Below, one piece after another: positions 5,169-19,924 of a DNA stretch of 22,902 nucleotides. The translations under genes were made by a program, and so were the position numbers. Every line of letters begins with the position of its first letter. The stretch's first letter is position 1. The stretch is from a virus. The notes beneath the pieces were generated by a model. The model made no database searches. It was given only the letters and a program-made list of their open reading frames with translations, and was not told the DNA's origin. The DNA lies in IMG/VR virus record IMGVR_UViG_3300046003_002007, positions 1 to 22,902 of that record. One strand, written 5' to 3'.

Positions 5169-5519
5169 ATGAAAAAATTATTGACTGCACTTGTTTTGTC
5201 TTTTGCTCTTGTTGGAGCAGTATCTGCACAACATAGACATTATGGCCATCACGGATATCATGGTCCAAGAGTAATCCACCACCATAGTGGTAATTGGGGA
5301 CAAGTATTTGTTCCGTTGATCATCGGTGGAGTTGTAGGTGCTGCCATTGCAAATAATAATAGACCCGTTGAGACTCCTACTGTCGTTGTTCAGCCACCGA
5401 TCGCACAAGGTTCTCCAATTATACAATGTCCTCAAGGTACATACCCATTTGAGAATTTTGGTTGGGTTAAAAACCAATATGGACAATTTGTCCAAGCTAT
5501 CTATATTGAGTGTAAGTAA
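5169..5519 (+). CDS. Secreted His/Gly-rich small protein
   Basis: A 116-residue protein from ATG 5169, which has GGAG at 5159-5162 six bases upstream. An ATG at 5157 is in frame but lacks a site. Residues 1-20 (MKKLLTALVLSFALVGAVSA) are a clear Sec signal peptide with cleavage after AxA. Next comes a His-rich stretch (HRHYGHHGYHGPRVIHHH) that could bind metal, then a hydrophobic Gly-zipper-like segment (VPLIIGGVVGAAIANNN). The C-terminal half has two Cys (IQCPQGTYPF and IYIECK) that could form a disulfide in the periplasm. Many bacterial small envelope proteins look like this. A phage copy may modify the host envelope, though I cannot name a family. Its stop overlaps the iscU start. Confidence 0.75.
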   Translation: MKKLLTALVLSFALVGAVSAQHRHYGHHGYHGPRVIHHHSGNWGQVFVPLIIGGVVGAAIANNNRPVETPTVVVQPPIAQGSPIIQCPQGTYPFENFGWVKNQYGQFVQAIYIECK

Positions 5520-5905
5520 TGGCCTACTCAGATAAAGTTGTTGATCACTATGAAAATCCCAGGAATGTCGGATCTTTTGACAAGGGTGATCCTAGTGTTG
5601 GTACTGGTATGGTTGGCGCACCTGCTTGCGGCGATGTAATGAAATTACAGATAAAGGTTGACCATGATACAGGTATTATTACAGATGCGAAATTTAAAAC
5701 GTATGGCTGTGGATCGGCTATCGCGAGCTCGAGCCTCATTACAGAGTGGGTCAAAGGCATGCACATCGACGAAGCCAGAACAATTAAAAACTCCGAAATT
5801 GCCGAAGAGCTAGCTCTACCACCAGTTAAGATACATTGTTCAATTCTAGCAGAAGATGCTATCAAAGCGGCAGTAGATGATTACCGTAACCGACACAGCC
5901 AATAA
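5519..5905 (+). CDS. iscU: Iron-sulfur cluster scaffold protein IscU
   Basis: A 128-residue full-length IscU, the scaffold on which [2Fe-2S] clusters are built before transfer. All ligand cysteines are present: C37 in GAPACGDVM, C64 in YGCGSAIASSS and C107 in KIHCSIL. D39, which aids cluster release, is there as well. The LPPVK motif (residues 100-104) recognised by the HscA chaperone is intact, so host HscA/HscB and IscS could serve it. The ATG at 5519 overlaps the TAA of the preceding gene, and the 3' end overlaps iscA by 29 bp. No iscS, hscA or fdx is nearby, so it must plug into the host ISC machinery. Confidence 0.96.
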   Translation: MAYSDKVVDHYENPRNVGSFDKGDPSVGTGMVGAPACGDVMKLQIKVDHDTGIITDAKFKTYGCGSAIASSSLITEWVKGMHIDEARTIKNSEIAEELALPPVKIHCSILAEDAIKAAVDDYRNRHSQ

Positions 5906-6203
5906 GAAAATCCTACAACTTCTGTCTCGACGTGGCAAGGGTATTGGTATACGGCTAGGCGTAAAAACTACAGGTTGTAGTGGCCTTGCTTATACGTTAG
6001 AATATGTTGATAGTTATACTGTCGAAGAAGGTGTAACTAATTTTGCCCAACCAGAGTTTGTAGTATTGGTTGATGCAAAGTCACTGGCATACCTACAAGG
6101 ACTCATTGTTGATTGGGCTCGTAATGGACTCAATGAAGGATTTGAATTTCGCAATCCCAATGAACGTGATAAATGTGGGTGTGGAGAAAGTTTTAGAGTG
6201 TAA
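5877..6203 (+). CDS. A-type Fe-S carrier (IscA/ErpA/SufA family)
   Basis: A 108-residue A-type carrier that receives clusters from scaffolds and delivers them to apoproteins. The three invariant cysteines are C34 (TTGCSGLAYT) and the C-terminal pair C100 and C102 (KCGCGESF). The N-terminal TDTANKKI and the FRNPN segment before the Cys pair are typical. Length fits IscA or ErpA, and I cannot choose between them. It starts inside iscU (29 bp overlap), so translation is probably coupled and the two are a functional pair. It is followed directly by the phage tmRNA gene, which may share its transcript. Confidence 0.95.
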   Translation: MITVTDTANKKILQLLSRRGKGIGIRLGVKTTGCSGLAYTLEYVDSYTVEEGVTNFAQPEFVVLVDAKSLAYLQGLIVDWARNGLNEGFEFRNPNERDKCGCGESFRV

Positions 6204-6209
6204 ATAAAA

Positions 6210-6520
6210 GTTAAGACTGTATGAAGTAGACAGAAAAGGATTCAAGACGCGGGGGCAGTGCCCGCCAGGTCCACCATAAAGTACATTGGCCAACACCCGA
6301 CATACTGGGATAATAAGATGGCATAGCCGCTAGTGTATTTTATAATGGGCCTGACACAGGATCGATTGGGTCACAAGTATTGAAATGGACAGTCCGGCAA
6401 TGTAGAAGCCGTTAGGATTGGGGTCTCCCGGTCGAAGAAGCACAACAAAGTAAACGCAAACGACTCACAGTTCGCATTGGCAGCCTAAACGCAGCCTAGG
6501 GTAAGACATACCTCGTAACA
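6210..6520 (+). ncRNA. ssrA: Circularly permuted tmRNA (SsrA), two-piece type
   Basis: This transfer-messenger RNA rescues stalled ribosomes. Gene order is permuted: the acceptor piece (about 6210-6276) comes first and the coding piece (from 6347) second, with about 70 nt between them (6277-6346) to be removed. The acceptor stem pairs GGGCCTG (6347-6353) with CAGGTCC (6266-6272), followed by ACCA (6273-6276). The third pair is G-U, the alanine identity signal. The T-arm stem is GCGGG/CCCGC (6249-6253 with 6261-6265) around an unusual 7-nt loop GGCAGTG that lacks the normal TTC. The two pieces also pair through GACTGT (6215-6220) and ACAGTC (6389-6394). The tag reading frame runs from GCA 6456 to TAA 6486-6488 and encodes ANDSQFALAA. 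Both outer ends are approximate. Confidence 0.93.
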
Positions 6521-6572: not shown

Positions 6573-6601
6573 TTGTAATCATACTGTAATCATTTTGTGT
6601 T
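6573..6601 (+). promoter_or_regulatory. Pho box (PhoB-type operator) upstream of pstS
   Basis: TTGTAAT (6573-6579), CTGTAAT (6584-6590) and TTGTGTT (6595-6601) are direct repeats at an 11-bp period with 4-bp spacers. This matches the CTGTCAT-N4-CTGTCAT layout of PhoB sites, which replace the -35 box. A plausible -10 is TAAATA at 6602-6607, 11 bp beyond the second repeat. The site implies induction by the host PhoR/PhoB system under phosphate starvation. Confidence 0.75.
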
Positions 6602-6636
6602 TAAATATTAATATCACAAACACAAGGAGACTTACA

Positions 6637-7641
6637 GTGAAAAAACTATTTGCTATTCTATTAGCCGCAGTGACTATATCAGCACAAGCCACGGACATCA
6701 CAGGTGCAGGAGCGACATTTCCATTTCCAATCTATGCCAAGTGGGCTGAAGGATATAAGAAAGCCACAGGTACCGGTATGAACTATCAGAGCATTGGATC
6801 ATCTGGTGGCATTCGCCAAATCAATGCAAAGACAGTGGACTTTGGTGCAACTGATGCTCCAGTATCAGGTGAAAACTTAGACAAGAACGGTCAAGTACAG
6901 TTCCCTGCTATTATCGGCGGAACAGTTCCTGTTGTAAACTTAGACGGTTTCAAGCCAGGCGAACTACGCATCACTGGACCAGTTATGGCCGAAGTGTTCT
7001 TGGGCAACATTGCCAAGTGGAATGATCCTCGATTACTAGCATTGAATCCAGGCAAACAATTACCTGATCAGCCTATTACCATTGTACATCGTGCTGATGG
7101 TAGTGGTACAACATTCAACTGGACAGACTATCTTGCTACAGTTAGCCCCGAGTGGTTGAGCCGAGTAGGTCGTGGTGCGGCAGTTAAATGGCCGGCTGCT
7201 AGTTCAGTAGGTGGCAAGGGCAATGAAGGTGTTGCTGCCAATGTAAACAGAATTAAAGGTTCAATTGGTTATGTAGAGTATGCTTATGTTAAGAAAAACA
7301 ATATGACATTTCTACAACTGCAGAACAAGGCAGGCCGGTATGTTAGCCCAGATGACTTAACATTTGCCGCTGCCGCAGACGGTGCTGATTGGTTCAGTGT
7401 TCCTGGTATGGGACTGAGTATTGTGGATCAAAAGAATCCCAATGCTTGGCCAGTGAGTTCAGCCAGTTTCATCATCATGTACAAAGAGCCAAAGAGCAAA
7501 GCTACCAGCGATGAAGTATTAAAGTTCTTTGATTGGGCATTTAAGAATGGCAAGAAAGATGCCGCAGACTTAGACTATGTAGCATTACCGGACAGTTTGA
7601 CAAAACAGATCCGTGAGCGTGTTTGGACACAGATTAAGTAA
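6637..7641 (+). CDS. pstS: Phosphate-binding periplasmic protein PstS
   Basis: A 334-residue substrate-binding protein of the Pst phosphate ABC transporter. I place the start at GTG 6637, seven bases after AAGGAGA. This gives a Sec signal peptide (MKKLFAILLAAVTISAQA) and a mature N-terminus at TDITGAGATFPFPIYAKW, typical of PstS. Phosphate-site motifs are visible: GAGATF, SIGSSGGIRQI, DFGATDAPV and HRADGSGTTFNW. An upstream in-frame TTG (6595) would add residues without a ribosome-binding site and lies in the operator. It would be exported to the host periplasm and feed the host PstCAB, since no other pst genes are here. A Pho box precedes it and a strong terminator follows, so it is a single-gene unit. 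Confidence 0.97.
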   Translation: MKKLFAILLAAVTISAQATDITGAGATFPFPIYAKWAEGYKKATGTGMNYQSIGSSGGIRQINAKTVDFGATDAPVSGENLDKNGQVQFPAIIGGTVPVVNLDGFKPGELRITGPVMAEVFLGNIAKWNDPRLLALNPGKQLPDQPITIVHRADGSGTTFNWTDYLATVSPEWLSRVGRGAAVKWPAASSVGGKGNEGVAANVNRIKGSIGYVEYAYVKKNNMTFLQLQNKAGRYVSPDDLTFAAAADGADWFSVPGMGLSIVDQKNPNAWPVSSASFIIMYKEPKSKATSDEVLKFFDWAFKNGKKDAADLDYVALPDSLTKQIRERVWTQIK

Positions 7642-9853: not shown

Positions 9854-10266
9854 TGGAAAATAGAATAACATTAATAACCCCTCCGGATTTTTTTGAGAAT
9901 GAATCGTACAGTATCATGTTTGTACATCTGTCAGATGAAGATCAAACACAGGTAAGCAAATGGTTAGCCGATGCTAATCTCACAGAACATATCAACATTT
10001 ATTTTTATGATCACGACATAAACCTTGAATGGTTTTTCTATGCACTGGCTAGATGCGAGTACACGTATGTTGACCTTGAAAGTCTCAATACTGCTACGTC
10101 TATCCTAGGCGGCTACATACTAGGAAAGAAAAACGTCTATTACAAAACTGATAATGAAAACACATCCGCAGTTTGTCACTTCATTAATCAGAATAGGATA
10201 ACTAAAGTAGAAGCATTTTTAGAAAGAGCATTTAATGACAAAATCGGAATCAAATCACAAGTGTGA
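9853..10266 (+). CDS. Hypothetical protein upstream of clpX
   Basis: A 137-residue protein that I do not recognise. The ATG at 9853 overlaps the previous stop (TAATG), and its end overlaps clpX by 32 bp, so it is tightly coupled to both neighbours. The sequence alternates strands and helices: ITLITPPDFFENESYSIMFV, then INIYFYDHDINLEWFFYALA, then ATSILGGYILGKKNVYYKT. The last part resembles the helix-turn of nucleoside deoxyribosyltransferase- or TIR-like Rossmann domains, where a Glu/Asp and a Gly-rich turn sit before a strand. The catalytic residues cannot be identified, so this is only a hint. Confidence 0.7.
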   Translation: MENRITLITPPDFFENESYSIMFVHLSDEDQTQVSKWLADANLTEHINIYFYDHDINLEWFFYALARCEYTYVDLESLNTATSILGGYILGKKNVYYKTDNENTSAVCHFINQNRITKVEAFLERAFNDKIGIKSQV

Positions 10267-11482
10267 TTTTTGCAATAAAAGCAAAGAGGATGTGGAGAAG
10301 TTAATTGTCGGGGACCACGCTGCCATTTGTAATGATTGTGTAGAGCTATGTATTGACATACTCAAAGATGAAAAAGTAAAAACTTTTCCTAATACACTTA
10401 AACTATTAAATCCCGTTAAAATAAAAGAGTACCTTGACGATTATGTTATCGGACAGGACGATGCTAAGATTGCCCTAAGTGTAGCGGTTAGTCAGCACTT
10501 TAAACGTATCAATAATCCCAGTAAAGACATTGAACTAGAAAAGACTAACGTATTAATGTTAGGTCCAACAGGCTGCGGCAAAACAATGATGGCACGTAAG
10601 ATTGCCGAATACCTAGATCTTCCATTTGCCATATGTGATGCCACAGGTATTACAGAAGCAGGCTACGTAGGTGATGACGTAGAAAGTATCCTAACACGTT
10701 TGATCAACGAAGCAGACGGAGACATACAAAAGGCTGCTCGTGGTATTGTTTACATCGACGAAATTGATAAGATTAGCCGCAAAGGCGAAAGTGCCAGTAT
10801 TACTCGAGATGTGTCAGGTGAAGGTGTACAGCAGGCCCTATTGAAGATGATTGAGGGCAGTATTATGCGAGTTCCGTCAACCAGTAAAAGAAAGCATCCC
10901 GGCAGTGACATGCAGGAGATTGACACACGCAGTATCTTGTTTATCTGTGGTGGCGCATTTGTGGGCATTGACAAACTTATTAAACAACGTACAGGTGCTA
11001 GAAGTGTAGGTTTCCATGCTAACGTAGATAACGTAGAAGATAACCCGGATGTGTTTCATGATGTAACAACCAAGGATCTCATCAAGTTTGGACTTATTCC
11101 CGAGTTTGTAGGTCGCTTCGGATTAATCACTAATGTAGATGAACTCGAAGAAGATCAACTTGTACAGATTCTAACAGATACTAAAAACAGTACTATTAAA
11201 CAATATCAGTATATGTTCGAATTAGACGGTATTAATCTAAGTTTTGATCAGGATGCACTACGTGAAATAGCAAAGAGAGCCAAGGACCTTAAGACTAATG
11301 CTCGTGGACTTAAGAACATTATTGAAAAGGTTCTAATGCCTTACCAATTTGATGCTGTAGATCTCGTCGAACGCGGTTTGAAATCGATTCACATAAGTAA
11401 AGATACTATTGATGGCTCACCGGCCACTATGATTTTTGATAAAAAGAAAAATGAGCAAAAACAACAAAGCACCAATGGGTAA
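10235..11482 (+). CDS. clpX: ATP-dependent Clp protease ATPase subunit ClpX
   Basis: A 415-residue full-length ClpX, an AAA+ hexamer that unfolds tagged proteins and feeds them to ClpP. The N-terminal zinc-binding domain has C10, C13, C32 and C35. Walker A is GPTGCGKT (110-117), the pore loop is GYVG (143-146) and Walker B is VYIDEID (about 172-178). A KRKHPG segment corresponds to the RKH loop that helps recognise ssrA tags. The ClpP-docking tripeptide IGF of E. coli appears as VGF (in [10 protein letters not shown]), so docking to host ClpP looks possible. Sensor 2 is in [10 protein letters not shown]. No clpP is in the window. It overlaps the preceding ORF by 32 bp and bS21 by 32 bp. Its partner tmRNA is encoded 4 kb upstream. 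Confidence 0.96.
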
Positions 11483-16084: not shown

Positions 16085-16147
16085 TGTTCATGGTTTCCCT
16101 ATTACTAAAATAGGAAAATACAATGGAAGACTCATGGTTTTCCATTG
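16085..16147 (+). terminator. Two tandem hairpins between exonuclease and ahpC
   Basis: CCTATT/AATAGG (16098-16103 with 16109-16114) and CAATGGAA/TTCCATTG (16121-16128 with 16140-16147) form two stems. Each hairpin contains or is flanked by a TCATGGTTT repeat (16088-16096 and 16132-16140). The second stem is followed by ATTTCTTC, a poor T tract. They may act as a weak terminator or as a 3'-end stabiliser. Confidence 0.5.
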
Positions 16148-16173
16148 ATTTCTTCATTAAATACATGTACAAT
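16145..16173 (+). promoter_or_regulatory. Probable promoter for ahpC
   Basis: TTGATT (16145-16150) and TACAAT (16168-16173) with a 17-bp spacer. It is weaker than the other promoters here. The -35 overlaps the 3' arm of the upstream hairpin. Confidence 0.55.
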
Positions 16174-16207
16174 AAATATTGTTTCATTCACACACAAAGG
16201 AGATATT

Positions 16208-16759
16208 ATGAAAACAGTGGGAGATAGATTGGAAAAATTTGCCGTAACAGGCGTGAACCCAGGTAAAGATGATTTCTTTACTATTACAGATGAGAGCTTT
16301 GCAGGAAAGTGGAAGGTAATTGTTTACTATCCTAAGGACTTTACGTTCGTTTGTCCTACAGAAATTGTAGCCTACGATAAACTGTTCCAAGACTTTGCCG
16401 ACCGTGACGCTGTATTGCTGACAGGTTCAACAGACAACGAGTTCTGTAAACTAGCATGGCAACGTAGCCATGAAGATTTGAGCAAGATTAAACACATTCA
16501 GTTTGCTGATACTCAACGCCCTAACAACGAAACTTATGAGAATCTTAGCCTAATCGAACAGCTTGGTGTGTTCTATGCTCCAGCAGGTGCCGCACTTCGT
16601 GCAACATTCATTGTTGACCCAAACAATGAAATCCAACACGTTACTGTCAACAACTTGAACGTTGGTCGCTCACCCGAAGAAACACTTCGTGTATTGGATG
16701 CGCTACAAACTGGCGAACTATGTGCTTGTAACCGTACAGTCGGCGGTGAGACTCTATAA
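16208..16759 (+). CDS. ahpC: Peroxiredoxin, AhpC/Prx family
   Basis: A 183-residue 2-Cys peroxiredoxin that reduces H2O2 and organic peroxides. Peroxidatic C49 lies in YPKDFTFVCPTE, the canonical PxxxTxxC motif. C-terminal cysteines C172 and C174 (GELCACNR) include the resolving Cys. The start ATG 16208 follows AAAGGAGA; the in-frame extension upstream would overlap the promoter. AhpC needs a reductase. The AhpD-like protein encoded two genes downstream is the natural candidate, as in actinobacterial AhpC/AhpD pairs. The TAA overlaps the ATG of the next gene, so the three genes form one unit. Confidence 0.95.
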   Translation: MKTVGDRLEKFAVTGVNPGKDDFFTITDESFAGKWKVIVYYPKDFTFVCPTEIVAYDKLFQDFADRDAVLLTGSTDNEFCKLAWQRSHEDLSKIKHIQFADTQRPNNETYENLSLIEQLGVFYAPAGAALRATFIVDPNNEIQHVTVNNLNVGRSPEETLRVLDALQTGELCACNRTVGGETL

Positions 16760-17409
16760 TGTTAGAAACTATATGCGACACGTTAGTTGAAGCATATAGA
16801 CGCAACTGGATTACCAGTCGTGATGGCAATGTTTCAATTCGTCATCACGACCGTGATCACTTTTATATCACACCCAGTGGCGTCCGTAAGCAGACCATGC
16901 AACCTGATCAGTTCAAGAAGATTGGCATTGAGAAAGGTTACTACGATCAACCTCCTCGATTGTATCATGCTGGCAAGGAATTAGAGTACACTGACATTAG
17001 TGCTAACCTAAAGCCTAGCGGAGAACTACCATTGCACTTTGGCTTACAACGAGAAATGGGTCAACACTCAAGCGATGTTAGAGTTGTAGTTCATTTACAT
17101 CCAACTTACTGCATTGCGGCCATGCATGCCGGTATTGATTTAGGAACGGTTAGTGCAGCCTTCCCAGAACTTAATCGCTATACTAAAGTTGCACCCAACG
17201 TTGGTGATGTTCCGCCTATCAGTCAAGAACTTGCTGATCGTTGTCACGAGAATCTACAGTTAGATAATCTAGGCAACATCGCCTACGATATTGTTGGTAT
17301 CAAAGGTCACGGTGTTGTAGCCATTGACACAAGCCCATGGAGGGCGTTTGAACACATTGAACGATTAGAACATATTTGTCAAATCGTATTAGCATCAGGG
17401 AAATATTAA
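16759..17409 (+). CDS. Class II aldolase / epimerase / dehydratase family protein
   Basis: A 216-residue member of the zinc-dependent class II aldolase/adducin family (AraD, FucA, MtnB). Visible marks are RDGNVSIR near residue 21, ITPSGVRK at 37-44, KPSGELPLHF with a candidate catalytic E89, zinc ligands H112 and H114 in VVHLHPTYC, GHGVV further on, and a third zinc His in FEHIERLEH. The substrate cannot be read from sequence: candidates are sugar phosphates or the methylthioribulose phosphate of methionine salvage. The ATG overlaps the stop of ahpC and ahpD starts 1 bp after its stop, so an enzyme of sugar metabolism is wedged between two peroxide-defence genes. Confidence 0.9.
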   Translation: MLETICDTLVEAYRRNWITSRDGNVSIRHHDRDHFYITPSGVRKQTMQPDQFKKIGIEKGYYDQPPRLYHAGKELEYTDISANLKPSGELPLHFGLQREMGQHSSDVRVVVHLHPTYCIAAMHAGIDLGTVSAAFPELNRYTKVAPNVGDVPPISQELADRCHENLQLDNLGNIAYDIVGIKGHGVVAIDTSPWRAFEHIERLEHICQIVLASGKY

Positions 17410-17410
17410 A

Positions 17411-17917
17411 ATGAGTTTTATTGAATCAGTGAAAGGTGCGTTGCCAGACTACGCCAAAGATACAAAATTAAATCTGGATGCTGTATTGCTACGCAGTACA
17501 TTGGATGCCGATGTTGCTATGGGCTGTGCAGTAGCCGCTCTGGCCGCAACTGGCAACGGCAAAATATTATCAGTAATGTTAGCAGATGCTCCAGTACACG
17601 CAGAGTCAGCAATGACAGCCGCAAGCATTATGGCACAAAACAATGTATGGTACCCATTCGTTGAGATGGCTGATGATCCTAGTCTAAAAGGATTGCCAGC
17701 AGGTTTGCGTATGAACGCCATTCTGCACCACGGTGGAACTACTAAGGCTAACTTTGAAGCATTCAGTCTTGCTGCCAGCATTGTGGGCAAGTGCCATTTT
17801 TGTGTTAAGGCACACTATGACACACTTAAAAAGGAAGGCTATACTGTAGAACAACTTCGAGACATTGGACGTATTGCCAGCGTTATGAACAGTGTAGCCA
17901 AAGTGTTAAACAGTTAA
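17411..17917 (+). CDS. ahpD: AhpD-like alkylhydroperoxidase
   Basis: A 168-residue AhpD/carboxymuconolactone-decarboxylase-fold protein. The active-site motif is C128-H-F-C131 followed by H135 (GKCHFCVKAH), with E116 in the position of the proton-relay glutamate. In the best-studied case, AhpD is reduced by the lipoyl domains of 2-oxoacid dehydrogenase complexes and passes electrons to AhpC, which is encoded two genes upstream. Length and motif order fit full-length AhpD. It is the last gene before the promoter of the large ncRNA; no clear terminator is seen after it. Confidence 0.93.
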   Translation: MSFIESVKGALPDYAKDTKLNLDAVLLRSTLDADVAMGCAVAALAATGNGKILSVMLADAPVHAESAMTAASIMAQNNVWYPFVEMADDPSLKGLPAGLRMNAILHHGGTTKANFEAFSLAASIVGKCHFCVKAHYDTLKKEGYTVEQLRDIGRIASVMNSVAKVLNS

Positions 17918-17954
17918 TTTGGCTAAAAAAGGTATATTATCTGCAATATTTTTG

Positions 17955-17983
17955 TTGACAAGATAATTAAATTACTATATAAT
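17955..17983 (+). promoter_or_regulatory. Perfect sigma70 promoter for the large ncRNA
   Basis: TTGACA (17955-17960) and TATAAT (17978-17983) with a 17-bp spacer in an AT-rich setting. Transcription should start near 17990, 500 bp ahead of the next start codon. Confidence 0.92.
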
Positions 17984-18007
17984 AATAGCATAGACAGTAA
18001 ATTATAA

Positions 18008-18024
18008 GGTTAGGTACAGCAACA
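18008..18024 (+). repeat. Direct repeat, left copy, at ncRNA 5' end
   Basis: GGTTAGGTACAGCAACA matches the right copy at 18440-18456 in 15 of 17 positions. The pair frames the ncRNA core. Confidence 0.7.
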
Positions 18025-18430
18025 TTCATAATACTATGAATCGTTGGACCCTATGGTAGTCAGCTGGAGTTGAAGGGCTTGCCCGGAGACATTGAAGGTT
18101 GCTATTGAAATAGACCAACAAGCTCAGAGTGATGGCCTGAGTAAAATAAAAGCAGTCAACAACTAACCTGTTAAATCCTAGGATGGATTCAGCAACTTAA
18201 ACATTAAACTCTGAGCTAACTGCTATAGAAGATGGTCGCAGGACACAGTAGAAATACTGTACTAGGAAACTAGACTCGAAGGAATAGACGACACATTGGA
18301 AAGACTTTGTATGATGATTGTACAGACACAACACAATCTAGGCAACATGAATTGTTTGCTAGGCTTGCGGAACTAAACCGATACACTGGGGAATAGGCAA
18401 GCAGAAAATAAAATACGGTTCCGACCATCC

Positions 18431-18477
18431 TGTTGTATAGGTTATATACAGCAACAATTTTTTAATTAACATAACCT
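18431..18477 (+). terminator. Possible terminator/attenuator ending the ncRNA
   Basis: TGTATA/TATACA (18434-18439 with 18445-18450), extended by outer pairs, is followed by T6 (18458-18463). An alternative pairing of AGGTTAT (18439-18445) with ATAACCT (18471-18477) would disrupt the hairpin and ends next to the ribosome-binding site of the downstream gene. The stem is AT-rich, so termination would be partial. Confidence 0.5.
18440..18456 (+). repeat. Direct repeat, right copy, at ncRNA 3' end
   Basis: GGTTATATACAGCAACA is the partner of 18008-18024. It also forms the loop and 3' arm of the terminal hairpin. Confidence 0.7.
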
Positions 18478-18490
18478 GAAGGAAAGTAAA

Positions 18491-19888
18491 ATGAACGCAT
18501 TTGTTGAAGCGGTTAAGTCCGTTCCAGTTGAATCTCGTACCGCAAACGGTATGAAGACTTTTGAATCTAGCAAGAGTGATCTTGTAGATTTGTTCTTTGC
18601 CATTGGTGCAAGCCGTGGCAAGGATTTAAGCACTCAGTTTGCTCGCGCACTAGCACAAGACGAAACTCTTGCTCTACGTCTTTTGATGTGGGCACGTGAC
18701 GTGCGTGGTGGCGCCGGCGAACGTGACGTTGTTCGTAAGATTCTAGTAAATCTAGAAAAGACCAACCCAGCCGCATTGGCAAGAATTCTGCCACACCTGG
18801 CTGAATTTGGACGTTGGGACGACCTATTGATTTTTACTTCCAAGGAAGTGAAGGCGCAGGCATTTACCCTAATCGGTGATGCGCTACGTGCTCGCAATGG
18901 GTTGGCAGCAAAGTGGATGCCACGTCAAGGTCCGTTGGCAGTTGAAATCCGCAATTTCTTCGGTATGAGCCCAAAGTTCTATCGTAAGAGTTTGGTTAAC
19001 TTGAGTAAGACCGTTGAACAGAACATGTGTGCAAACACATGGGACCAAATCAATTATGGACACGTTCCATCGTTGGCGGCTGCTCGTTATCAAAAGGCTT
19101 TTAAGAAGCACGATGCTGTTGGTTATGATGCCTATAAGGCACGTTTGGTCTCTGGTGAAGATAAGGTTAATGCCGCAGCCGTTTACCCATACGATGTGAT
19201 CAAGTCACATAAGTTTGGTGGAGACGCAACTGTGATCCAATCACAGTGGGATGCATTGCCAAACTACATCGGTGATGAACTGGTGTTGCCAATGTGTGAC
19301 GTGTCTGGCTCTATGAGCTCACCAGTTGGCGGAAACGCTAACTTGACTTGTATGGATGTTTGCGTGAGCTTGGGCTTGTACCTTGCTGATAAGAACACTG
19401 GTCCATTCAAGGACATGTTTTTGACTTTCTCTGCAAAGAGCAAGATCGAAATCTTGAAGGGTGACTTGTTAAGCAAGTTGGCTCAACTACAACGTGCAGA
19501 TTGGGACATGAGTACCAACCTACACGCGGCCTTTGACACTGTATTAAACTACGCTGTCAAGGCCAATGTCGATGCCAAGGATATGCCACGGTATGTCCTT
19601 ATCATGAGTGACATGGAGTTCAACGTTTGTACTCGCAACGATGACTCTGCTATGCAGATGATCGAACGCAAGTACAACGAAGCAGGATATACTGTTCCAA
19701 ACATTGTATTCTGGAACTTGAACGCTCGTGCAGGTAATGTACCTGTTAAGCACGACAAGAAGGGTGTTGCCCTTGTTAGCGGATTTAGTCCAGCTATCAT
19801 GAAGAGCATCCTGAGCGCTGAATCATTGGATCCTGTATCAGTAATGATGCAGACTTTGAACAGCCCACGTTATGCTGTAATAGCATAA
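18491..19888 (+). CDS. DUF2828 / TROVE-like protein with von Willebrand A domain (Ro60-like)
   Basis: A 465-residue protein in two parts. Residues about 25-245 are helical repeats with DUF2828-type motifs: ARDVRGGAGERDVVRKIL, then FGRWDDLL, AAKWMPRQGP, KFYRKSLVNLSKTVEQNM and WDQINYGHVPS. Residues about 262-465 form a von Willebrand A domain with a complete metal site: D270, S272 and S274 (CDVSGSMSS), T342 (STNL) and D374 (MSDMEF). This order, helical ring plus vWA, is that of Ro60/Rsr, RNA-binding proteins that hold Y RNAs; DUF2828 is related but its biochemistry is little known. Here a large structured RNA is encoded directly upstream, so an RNP is plausible. Ribosome-binding site GAAGGAAAG. 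It ends at a strong terminator. To the eye its codons are richer in G/C than those of many neighbours. Confidence 0.88.
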   Translation: MNAFVEAVKSVPVESRTANGMKTFESSKSDLVDLFFAIGASRGKDLSTQFARALAQDETLALRLLMWARDVRGGAGERDVVRKILVNLEKTNPAALARILPHLAEFGRWDDLLIFTSKEVKAQAFTLIGDALRARNGLAAKWMPRQGPLAVEIRNFFGMSPKFYRKSLVNLSKTVEQNMCANTWDQINYGHVPSLAAARYQKAFKKHDAVGYDAYKARLVSGEDKVNAAAVYPYDVIKSHKFGGDATVIQSQWDALPNYIGDELVLPMCDVSGSMSSPVGGNANLTCMDVCVSLGLYLADKNTGPFKDMFLTFSAKSKIEILKGDLLSKLAQLQRADWDMSTNLHAAFDTVLNYAVKANVDAKDMPRYVLIMSDMEFNVCTRNDDSAMQMIERKYNEAGYTVPNIVFWNLNARAGNVPVKHDKKGVALVSGFSPAIMKSILSAESLDPVSVMMQTLNSPRYAVIA

Positions 19889-19895
19889 GGTGGTT

Positions 19896-19924
19896 AAAAA
19901 GGACTCCTAGGAGTCCTTTTTTTT
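19896..19924. terminator. Bidirectional terminator between convergent genes
   Basis: AAAAAGGACTCC followed by its inverted copy GGAGTCCTTTTT, around the centre TA, gives a near-perfect palindrome with an A run on one side and a T run on the other. It can end both the DUF2828 gene (+) and the DUF454 gene (-). Confidence 0.9.

Follow-up and report, generated by a model that had tools for sequence, protein, structure and literature searches.

The window analysed here is the whole 22,902-nucleotide stretch (22.9 kb) of IMG/VR record IMGVR_UViG_3300046003_002007, which derives from a freshwater virus of bacteria, and the element in question is a noncoding RNA of about 500 nucleotides (nt) that lies between a promoter and a gene for a DUF2828/DUF7788 protein with a von Willebrand factor A (vWA) domain. 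By layout, promoter, noncoding RNA, protein gene and terminator form one transcription unit (Table 1). A preliminary description had proposed a Ro-like ribonucleoprotein (RNP) module at this site, with a perfect promoter driving a long noncoding stretch. Both features were borne out: the sigma-70 promoter matches at 12 of 12 positions and is the only perfect site of the region, and no open reading frame (ORF) of at least 60 amino acids is found on either strand in 17918-18490. Comparable promoters precede the RNA or the leader in several relatives.

The RNA is composed of three tandem repeats of one module, a structure that the preliminary description had missed. Each module has a 7-bp helix (AGN5...N5CU-G), the 5' strand of which is followed by N-U-A-CAGCAA; the gap of 3 nt between this strand and CAGCAA is kept in 187 of 223 unique modules. 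Large branched inserts lie within modules 1 and 2, while the minimal module 3 ends at the Shine-Dalgarno sequence of the protein gene, a layout shared with relatives. The two GAAA-tetraloop hairpins noted previously are both present in the window, with the first (18245-18260) missing from several relatives. Between modules, a linker hairpin of the form CCUGUU-stem-UAGGAU-stem-ACAGCAA was recognised by eye only. Rfam covariance models, a comparison that had been recommended, matched no known family to the noncoding RNA at gathering threshold and gave no believable weaker match; in particular, GOLLD, ROOL, OLE, HEARO and YrlA (RF02553) gave none.

Table 1. Features of the transcription unit in the window, and tRNA-like domains at loci of cultured phages.
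Feature	Position	Strand	Remarks
Sigma-70 promoter	17955-17983	+	TTGACA-17-TATAAT
Module 1	18007-18170	+	P1 AGGTTAG 18007-18013 / CTAACCT 18163-18169, then G; GUA; CAGCAA 18017-18022; branched insert
Module 2	18180-18432	+	P2 AGGATGG 18180-18186 / CCATCCT 18425-18431, then G; CAGCAA 18190-18195; large insert
GAAA-tetraloop hairpins	18245-18260; 18262-18273	+	ACAGTA-GAAA-TACTGT; CTAG-GAAA-CTAG; from sequence
H-type pseudoknot in module 2	18363-18422	+	P2h 18363-18368/18397-18402 interleaved with P2i 18369-18373/18418-18422
Module 3 (minimal, candidate operator)	18439-18478	+	AGGTTAT 18439-18445 / ATAACCT 18471-18477, then G; CAGCAA 18449-18454
Shine-Dalgarno sequence of DUF2828 gene	18479-18483	+	AAGGA; from sequence; one base past module 3 helix
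DUF2828/DUF7788 (vWA) protein	18491-19888	+	465 amino acids; Ro60-like predicted fold
Intrinsic terminator	19896-19921	+	end of transcription unit
Circularly permuted tRNA-like domains inside module	L165 4615-4750; L166 4950-5075; L168 4028-4149		one with encoded CCA (S13)
tRNA-like genes with replaced anticodon loop	L165 4356-4476 and 4486-4598; L170 24-140; L175 4211-4324; L191 ~6973-7086		

Covariation was tested on alignments made without any motif descriptor, by comparing G statistics with those of alignments simulated along the tree with per-column substitution numbers kept. Beyond this phylogenetic null, homologous loci showed covariation in P1, P2, P2a, P2e, P2f, P2h and the pseudoknot helix P2i, with covarying pairs at 18010:18166 and 18012:18164 (P1), 18059:18102 (module 1 interior), 18186:18425 (P2) and 18224:18286, 18225:18285, 18295:18308 (89% paired), 18317:18337 and 18319:18335 (module 2 interior). 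Alignment of all full-length RNAs with MAFFT and RNAalifold yielded few pairs, the inserts being of different kinds; a module-wise split improved the yield, and in module-wise alignments all significant column pairs fall inside proposed helices. The long-range complementary segments first noticed in the window are real and extensive. One earlier alignment contained two significant column pairs without pairing (45% and 18% paired) in module 1, both located where unlike module 1 inserts had been co-aligned and both gone in the module-wise alignments. A run on a close group (22 sequences, looser threshold) gave non-pairing columns in one hypervariable module 1 hairpin (~18071-18088) and near 18321-18333.

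Of the two or more interleaved helix pairs suggested in the preliminary description, the one formed by P2h and P2i is strongly supported, and a second was not established. The pseudoknot is essentially fully paired in 35 sequences, in an alignment in which six rows were moved one column by hand; for P2i, 175 of 175 cells are paired and double changes occur at four of the five pairs. Taken singly, P2i pairs do not reach significance (E 0.5 or more); jointly they score 83, and 100 simulations under the null peaked at 7.8.

The distribution of the module was surveyed with a strict descriptor, using shuffles and the opposite strand as controls; as it demands exact complementarity, motif counts alone are not evidence of covariation. 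A protein search of IMG/VR returned 345 stretches, from which 80 loci were kept, one of them (L025) the window itself. These 80 loci hold 176 copies of the strict motif on the coding strand and none on the opposite one, against 0.6 in shuffles, and a strict module lies near DUF2828 in 76; counted over non-redundant viral DUF2828 loci, the motif is present at 79 of 81. A protein-independent search with the pseudoknot core found 49 stretches, 47 of which carry DUF2828 nearby, the remaining two (L138, L155) being cut by contig or locus ends. Thus the recurrent synteny anticipated in the preliminary description was found from both directions, and among the 49 RNA-found stretches no RNA lacks the protein where the flanks are readable. 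At the translation start, a strict module ends at most 90 nt from the start codon in 80 of 87 non-redundant leaders, a figure in which some leaders count through the preceding module, their own copy being a one-letter variant. Six of the other seven carry a one-letter variant module (by eye), and L031 carries none.

Architectures vary, with one to six strict modules upstream of the gene. At three loci (L026, L027, L029) the large RNA follows the gene and has a terminator at its end, and at L015 a big module with its own promoter sits far upstream behind another ORF; all four retain the leader module. The module order is 2-1-3 instead of 1-2-3 in L033 and L035. The modules of these two loci directly follow a tRNA-Ser gene that closes a long tRNA array, upstream of DUF2828.

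The protein is present in 680 cultured phage records, of which 23 loci were sampled. Most have modules beside the gene, with strict counts of 28 forward and 0 reverse and relaxed counts of 67 forward, 25 reverse and 11 in shuffles. Across phages whose hosts belong to many phyla, Ro-like genes with 30-47% protein identity have the motif nearby and on their own strand. Modules are found in Aeromonas LAh_6 and 4_4572 (six to eight in tandem), E. coli JH2, Citrobacter Moogle, Cronobacter S13, Vibrio BUCT194, Campylobacter NCTC12673, Listeria LMSP-25, Staphylococcus S-CoN_Ph8, Enterococcus PEF1, Bacillus 2S-4, Fusobacterium FNU3, Synechococcus BUCT-ZZ01 (cyanobacterial host) and Mycobacterium LeBron, in which the Ro-like protein is gp53, toxic when over-expressed (PMC13148394). 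Whole genomes of four phages show the motif clustered at the Ro-like gene and near shuffle level elsewhere; in JH2, Moogle and S13 the modules lie among tRNA genes downstream of the Ro-like gene. Searched against cultured phages at the nucleotide level, the window RNA gave no match; the large inserts are therefore not widespread there, and only the module is.

The protein was assigned to DUF2828 and DUF7788 by Pfam and is annotated as RNA-binding protein in PHROGs. Its domain order, a helical N-terminal part followed by vWA, and its intact metal ion-dependent adhesion site (MIDAS) had been pointed out before; the MIDAS residues (D270-x-S272-x-S274, T342, D374) proved invariant in 31 homologues. 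An AlphaFold2 model built from 30 homologues (predicted local distance difference test score, pLDDT, 82) had only two Foldseek matches in the PDB below E 0.001, the TROVE domain 9kop (E 1.9e-7) and human Ro60 9nen (E 1.4e-5), both with probability 1.00 over about 510 columns and full length. The relation to Ro, previously taken from family knowledge, is thereby extended to the predicted fold. At the sequence level, Pfam TROVE (PF05731) did not match the window protein, and profile comparison with PDB TROVE entries was weak and confined to the vWA part (E 0.005). In 229 Gammaproteobacteria genomes, sampled with a view to bacterial Y RNAs, TROVE gave a single partial match. We conclude from the model that the protein has a predicted Ro60 fold and belongs to a separate sequence family.

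In some cultured phages the module is joined to tRNA-like elements. In LeBron, JH2 and S13, one module each surrounds a circularly permuted tRNA-like domain that runs from T-arm through acceptor stem to D-arm, as in YrlA; the Rfam YrlA model aligns to the LeBron module with 39.8 bits, below the cut-off of 69. Furthermore, S13 (two genes), Ci1, LAh_6 and BUCT-ZZ01 have tRNA-like genes of about 113-121 nt in which the anticodon loop is replaced by a capped P1 hairpin with a CAGCA-type motif (CUGCA in BUCT-ZZ01), an arrangement like that of the Ro module. For the first four (two in L165, those in L170 and L175), ARAGORN called no tRNA. By eye, we read these chimeras as the opposite circular permutation of the module-tRNA chimera.

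Taken together, we favour, at a probability of about 0.78, a phage Ro60-type RNP, in which the protein recognises the module, the large modules are Y-RNA-like partners and the leader module provides feedback. The DUF2828/vWA ring protein would bind the 7-bp AG...CU-G helix with N-U-A-CAGCAA at a fixed distance from it, and a single transcript would supply two modules with large folded inserts, one pseudoknotted, as its Y-RNA-like partners. Because the motif adjoins the gene in phages whose hosts are very different bacteria, and is found at the translation start, the module is probably both RNA partner and feedback switch of the protein; binding, autoregulation and tethering or gating are what we infer. 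Y RNA tethers Rsr to PNPase (PMC7790460, PMC8058203); on this precedent the inserts probably link the ring to a different machine or control access to its RNA-binding hole, functions known from Y RNAs. With the partner modules filled, free protein would bind the minimal module 3 abutting the ribosome-binding site of its own mRNA and lower translation, so that protein is matched to RNA supply. That the leader module is kept where the large RNA sits downstream suggests such autoregulation. The tRNA-mimic inserts of LeBron, JH2 and S13, which resemble those of YrlA, also favour the Ro60-type RNP.

The RNA lies directly upstream on the same strand in most loci, with no terminator before the gene, as would be expected if the whole 5' region acted only in cis on the DUF2828 mRNA, as a riboswitch or attenuator leader, with no trans-acting partner. 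Against such a leader stand the three loci with a terminated large RNA behind the gene, the separately promoted RNA of L015 and the modules among downstream tRNA genes in JH2, Moogle and S13, and we regard it as unlikely. Somewhat less probable still is that the binding partner of the modules is some different factor of phage or host (for instance an RNase, an RNA ligase or a tRNA enzyme), with DUF2828 no more than a common resident of RNA-repair or tRNA islands: RNA ligase genes do occur near the gene in some phages and modules can occur among tRNAs, but DUF2828 stays next to the modules while the other genes around them change, and the ribosome-binding site of the DUF2828 gene itself carries the motif. 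A large noncoding stretch in a phage might also be a decayed gene, a mobile intron or a known RNA family, which is very improbable in view of the Rfam results and is contradicted by compensatory changes at many pairs.

Several observations weigh against the Ro60-type RNP. The stretches read contained no module in Erwinia SNUABM_19, XbC2, OC, Va3 and CBB (jumbo or T4-like phages), and JH2 has no strict leader module, therefore autoregulation is not universal. The CAGCAA module was also not found at 36 DUF2828 loci of bacterial genomes (L081-L116), which hold distant genes (29-41% identical), mostly from rumen and gut Clostridia; nor was a YrlA-type tRNA mimic detected in the window's own modules. 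A wider proposal, to which we give somewhat less than even odds, is a phage-wide class of Ro RNP distinct from YrlA, in which a single RNA, through its two to six docking modules, would load several Ro rings, the pseudoknotted inserts would be new effector domains recruiting a host machine, and the minimal leader module would adjust the protein level to the supply of RNA.

Elsewhere in the window, a permuted (two-piece) transfer-messenger RNA (Rfam RF04321, 103 bits) lies at 6215-6488 on the + strand, between IscA-like and PstS-like genes; ARAGORN reported no gene at this site. Host-like genes occur at 5519-6203, 6595-7641, 16145-17917 and 10235-11482, the set comprising NifU/IscU- and IscA-like proteins (from sequence), a PstS-like phosphate-binding protein, an AhpC/TSA peroxiredoxin, a class II aldolase, a CMD-family protein and ClpX with zinc finger.

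For DUF2828, only unrelated plant work was found in the literature, and the CAGCAA module, the tandem multi-module RNAs and the leader copy are undescribed in the accessible literature, which did not include the original Y RNA papers; for the RNA partners of most phage Ro60-like proteins that literature likewise gives no shared descriptor. The motif, the pseudoknotted RNA with its several modules and the operator in the leader appear to be new, with an earlier description possible in those original papers. Owing to its shortness, strictness and fixed geometry, the motif should make partner RNAs findable near the gene in many of the cultured phage records; it supplies RNA baits and point mutants for testing, and it predicts autoregulation. 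If the Ro60-type RNP is correct, the inserts would be new natural Y-RNA effector domains, some of them not tRNA mimics, alongside tRNA chimeras with the same motif.

Likely Y RNAs near Ro60 were reportedly noted by Chen and colleagues in 2014 in more than 250 bacterial and phage species. Ribosomal-protein leaders are autoregulated through binding-site mimicry; the present leader resembles them in that the motif presumed to bind the protein recurs across the ribosome-binding region of the mRNA encoding it. Unlike there, the partner would be a phage Y-like RNA, and the regulation is a prediction. With GOLLD, ROOL, OLE and HEARO, the RNA shares being large, structured, noncoding and located in phages or mobile elements; unlike these it has no Rfam match, is modular and is tied to a protein gene. 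TROVE proteins are known from jumbo phages (PMC7824862), and phage Ro60 with YrlA has already been reported, according to a passage of PMC7765460 that cites Sim and Wolin (2018), with the 2014 work of Chen and colleagues listed in PMC9569102; the present loci resemble these in pairing a Ro-like gene with, in some phages, a tRNA-mimic Y RNA. The closest parallel is bacterial Rsr with Y RNA/YrlA (Deinococcus, Salmonella; RF02553), where a gene for a Ro60-fold protein likewise lies beside structured noncoding RNAs and a base stem closed by both RNA ends is the Ro binding site; the phage modules have a base stem of conserved sequence that is supported by covariation, a candidate for this role, and some of them enclose a permuted tRNA like YrlA. 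In contrast to YrlA, the consensus base stem of which has no CAGCAA motif, the phage RNAs described here carry tandem modules, large non-tRNA pseudoknotted inserts and one copy at the Shine-Dalgarno sequence of the gene.
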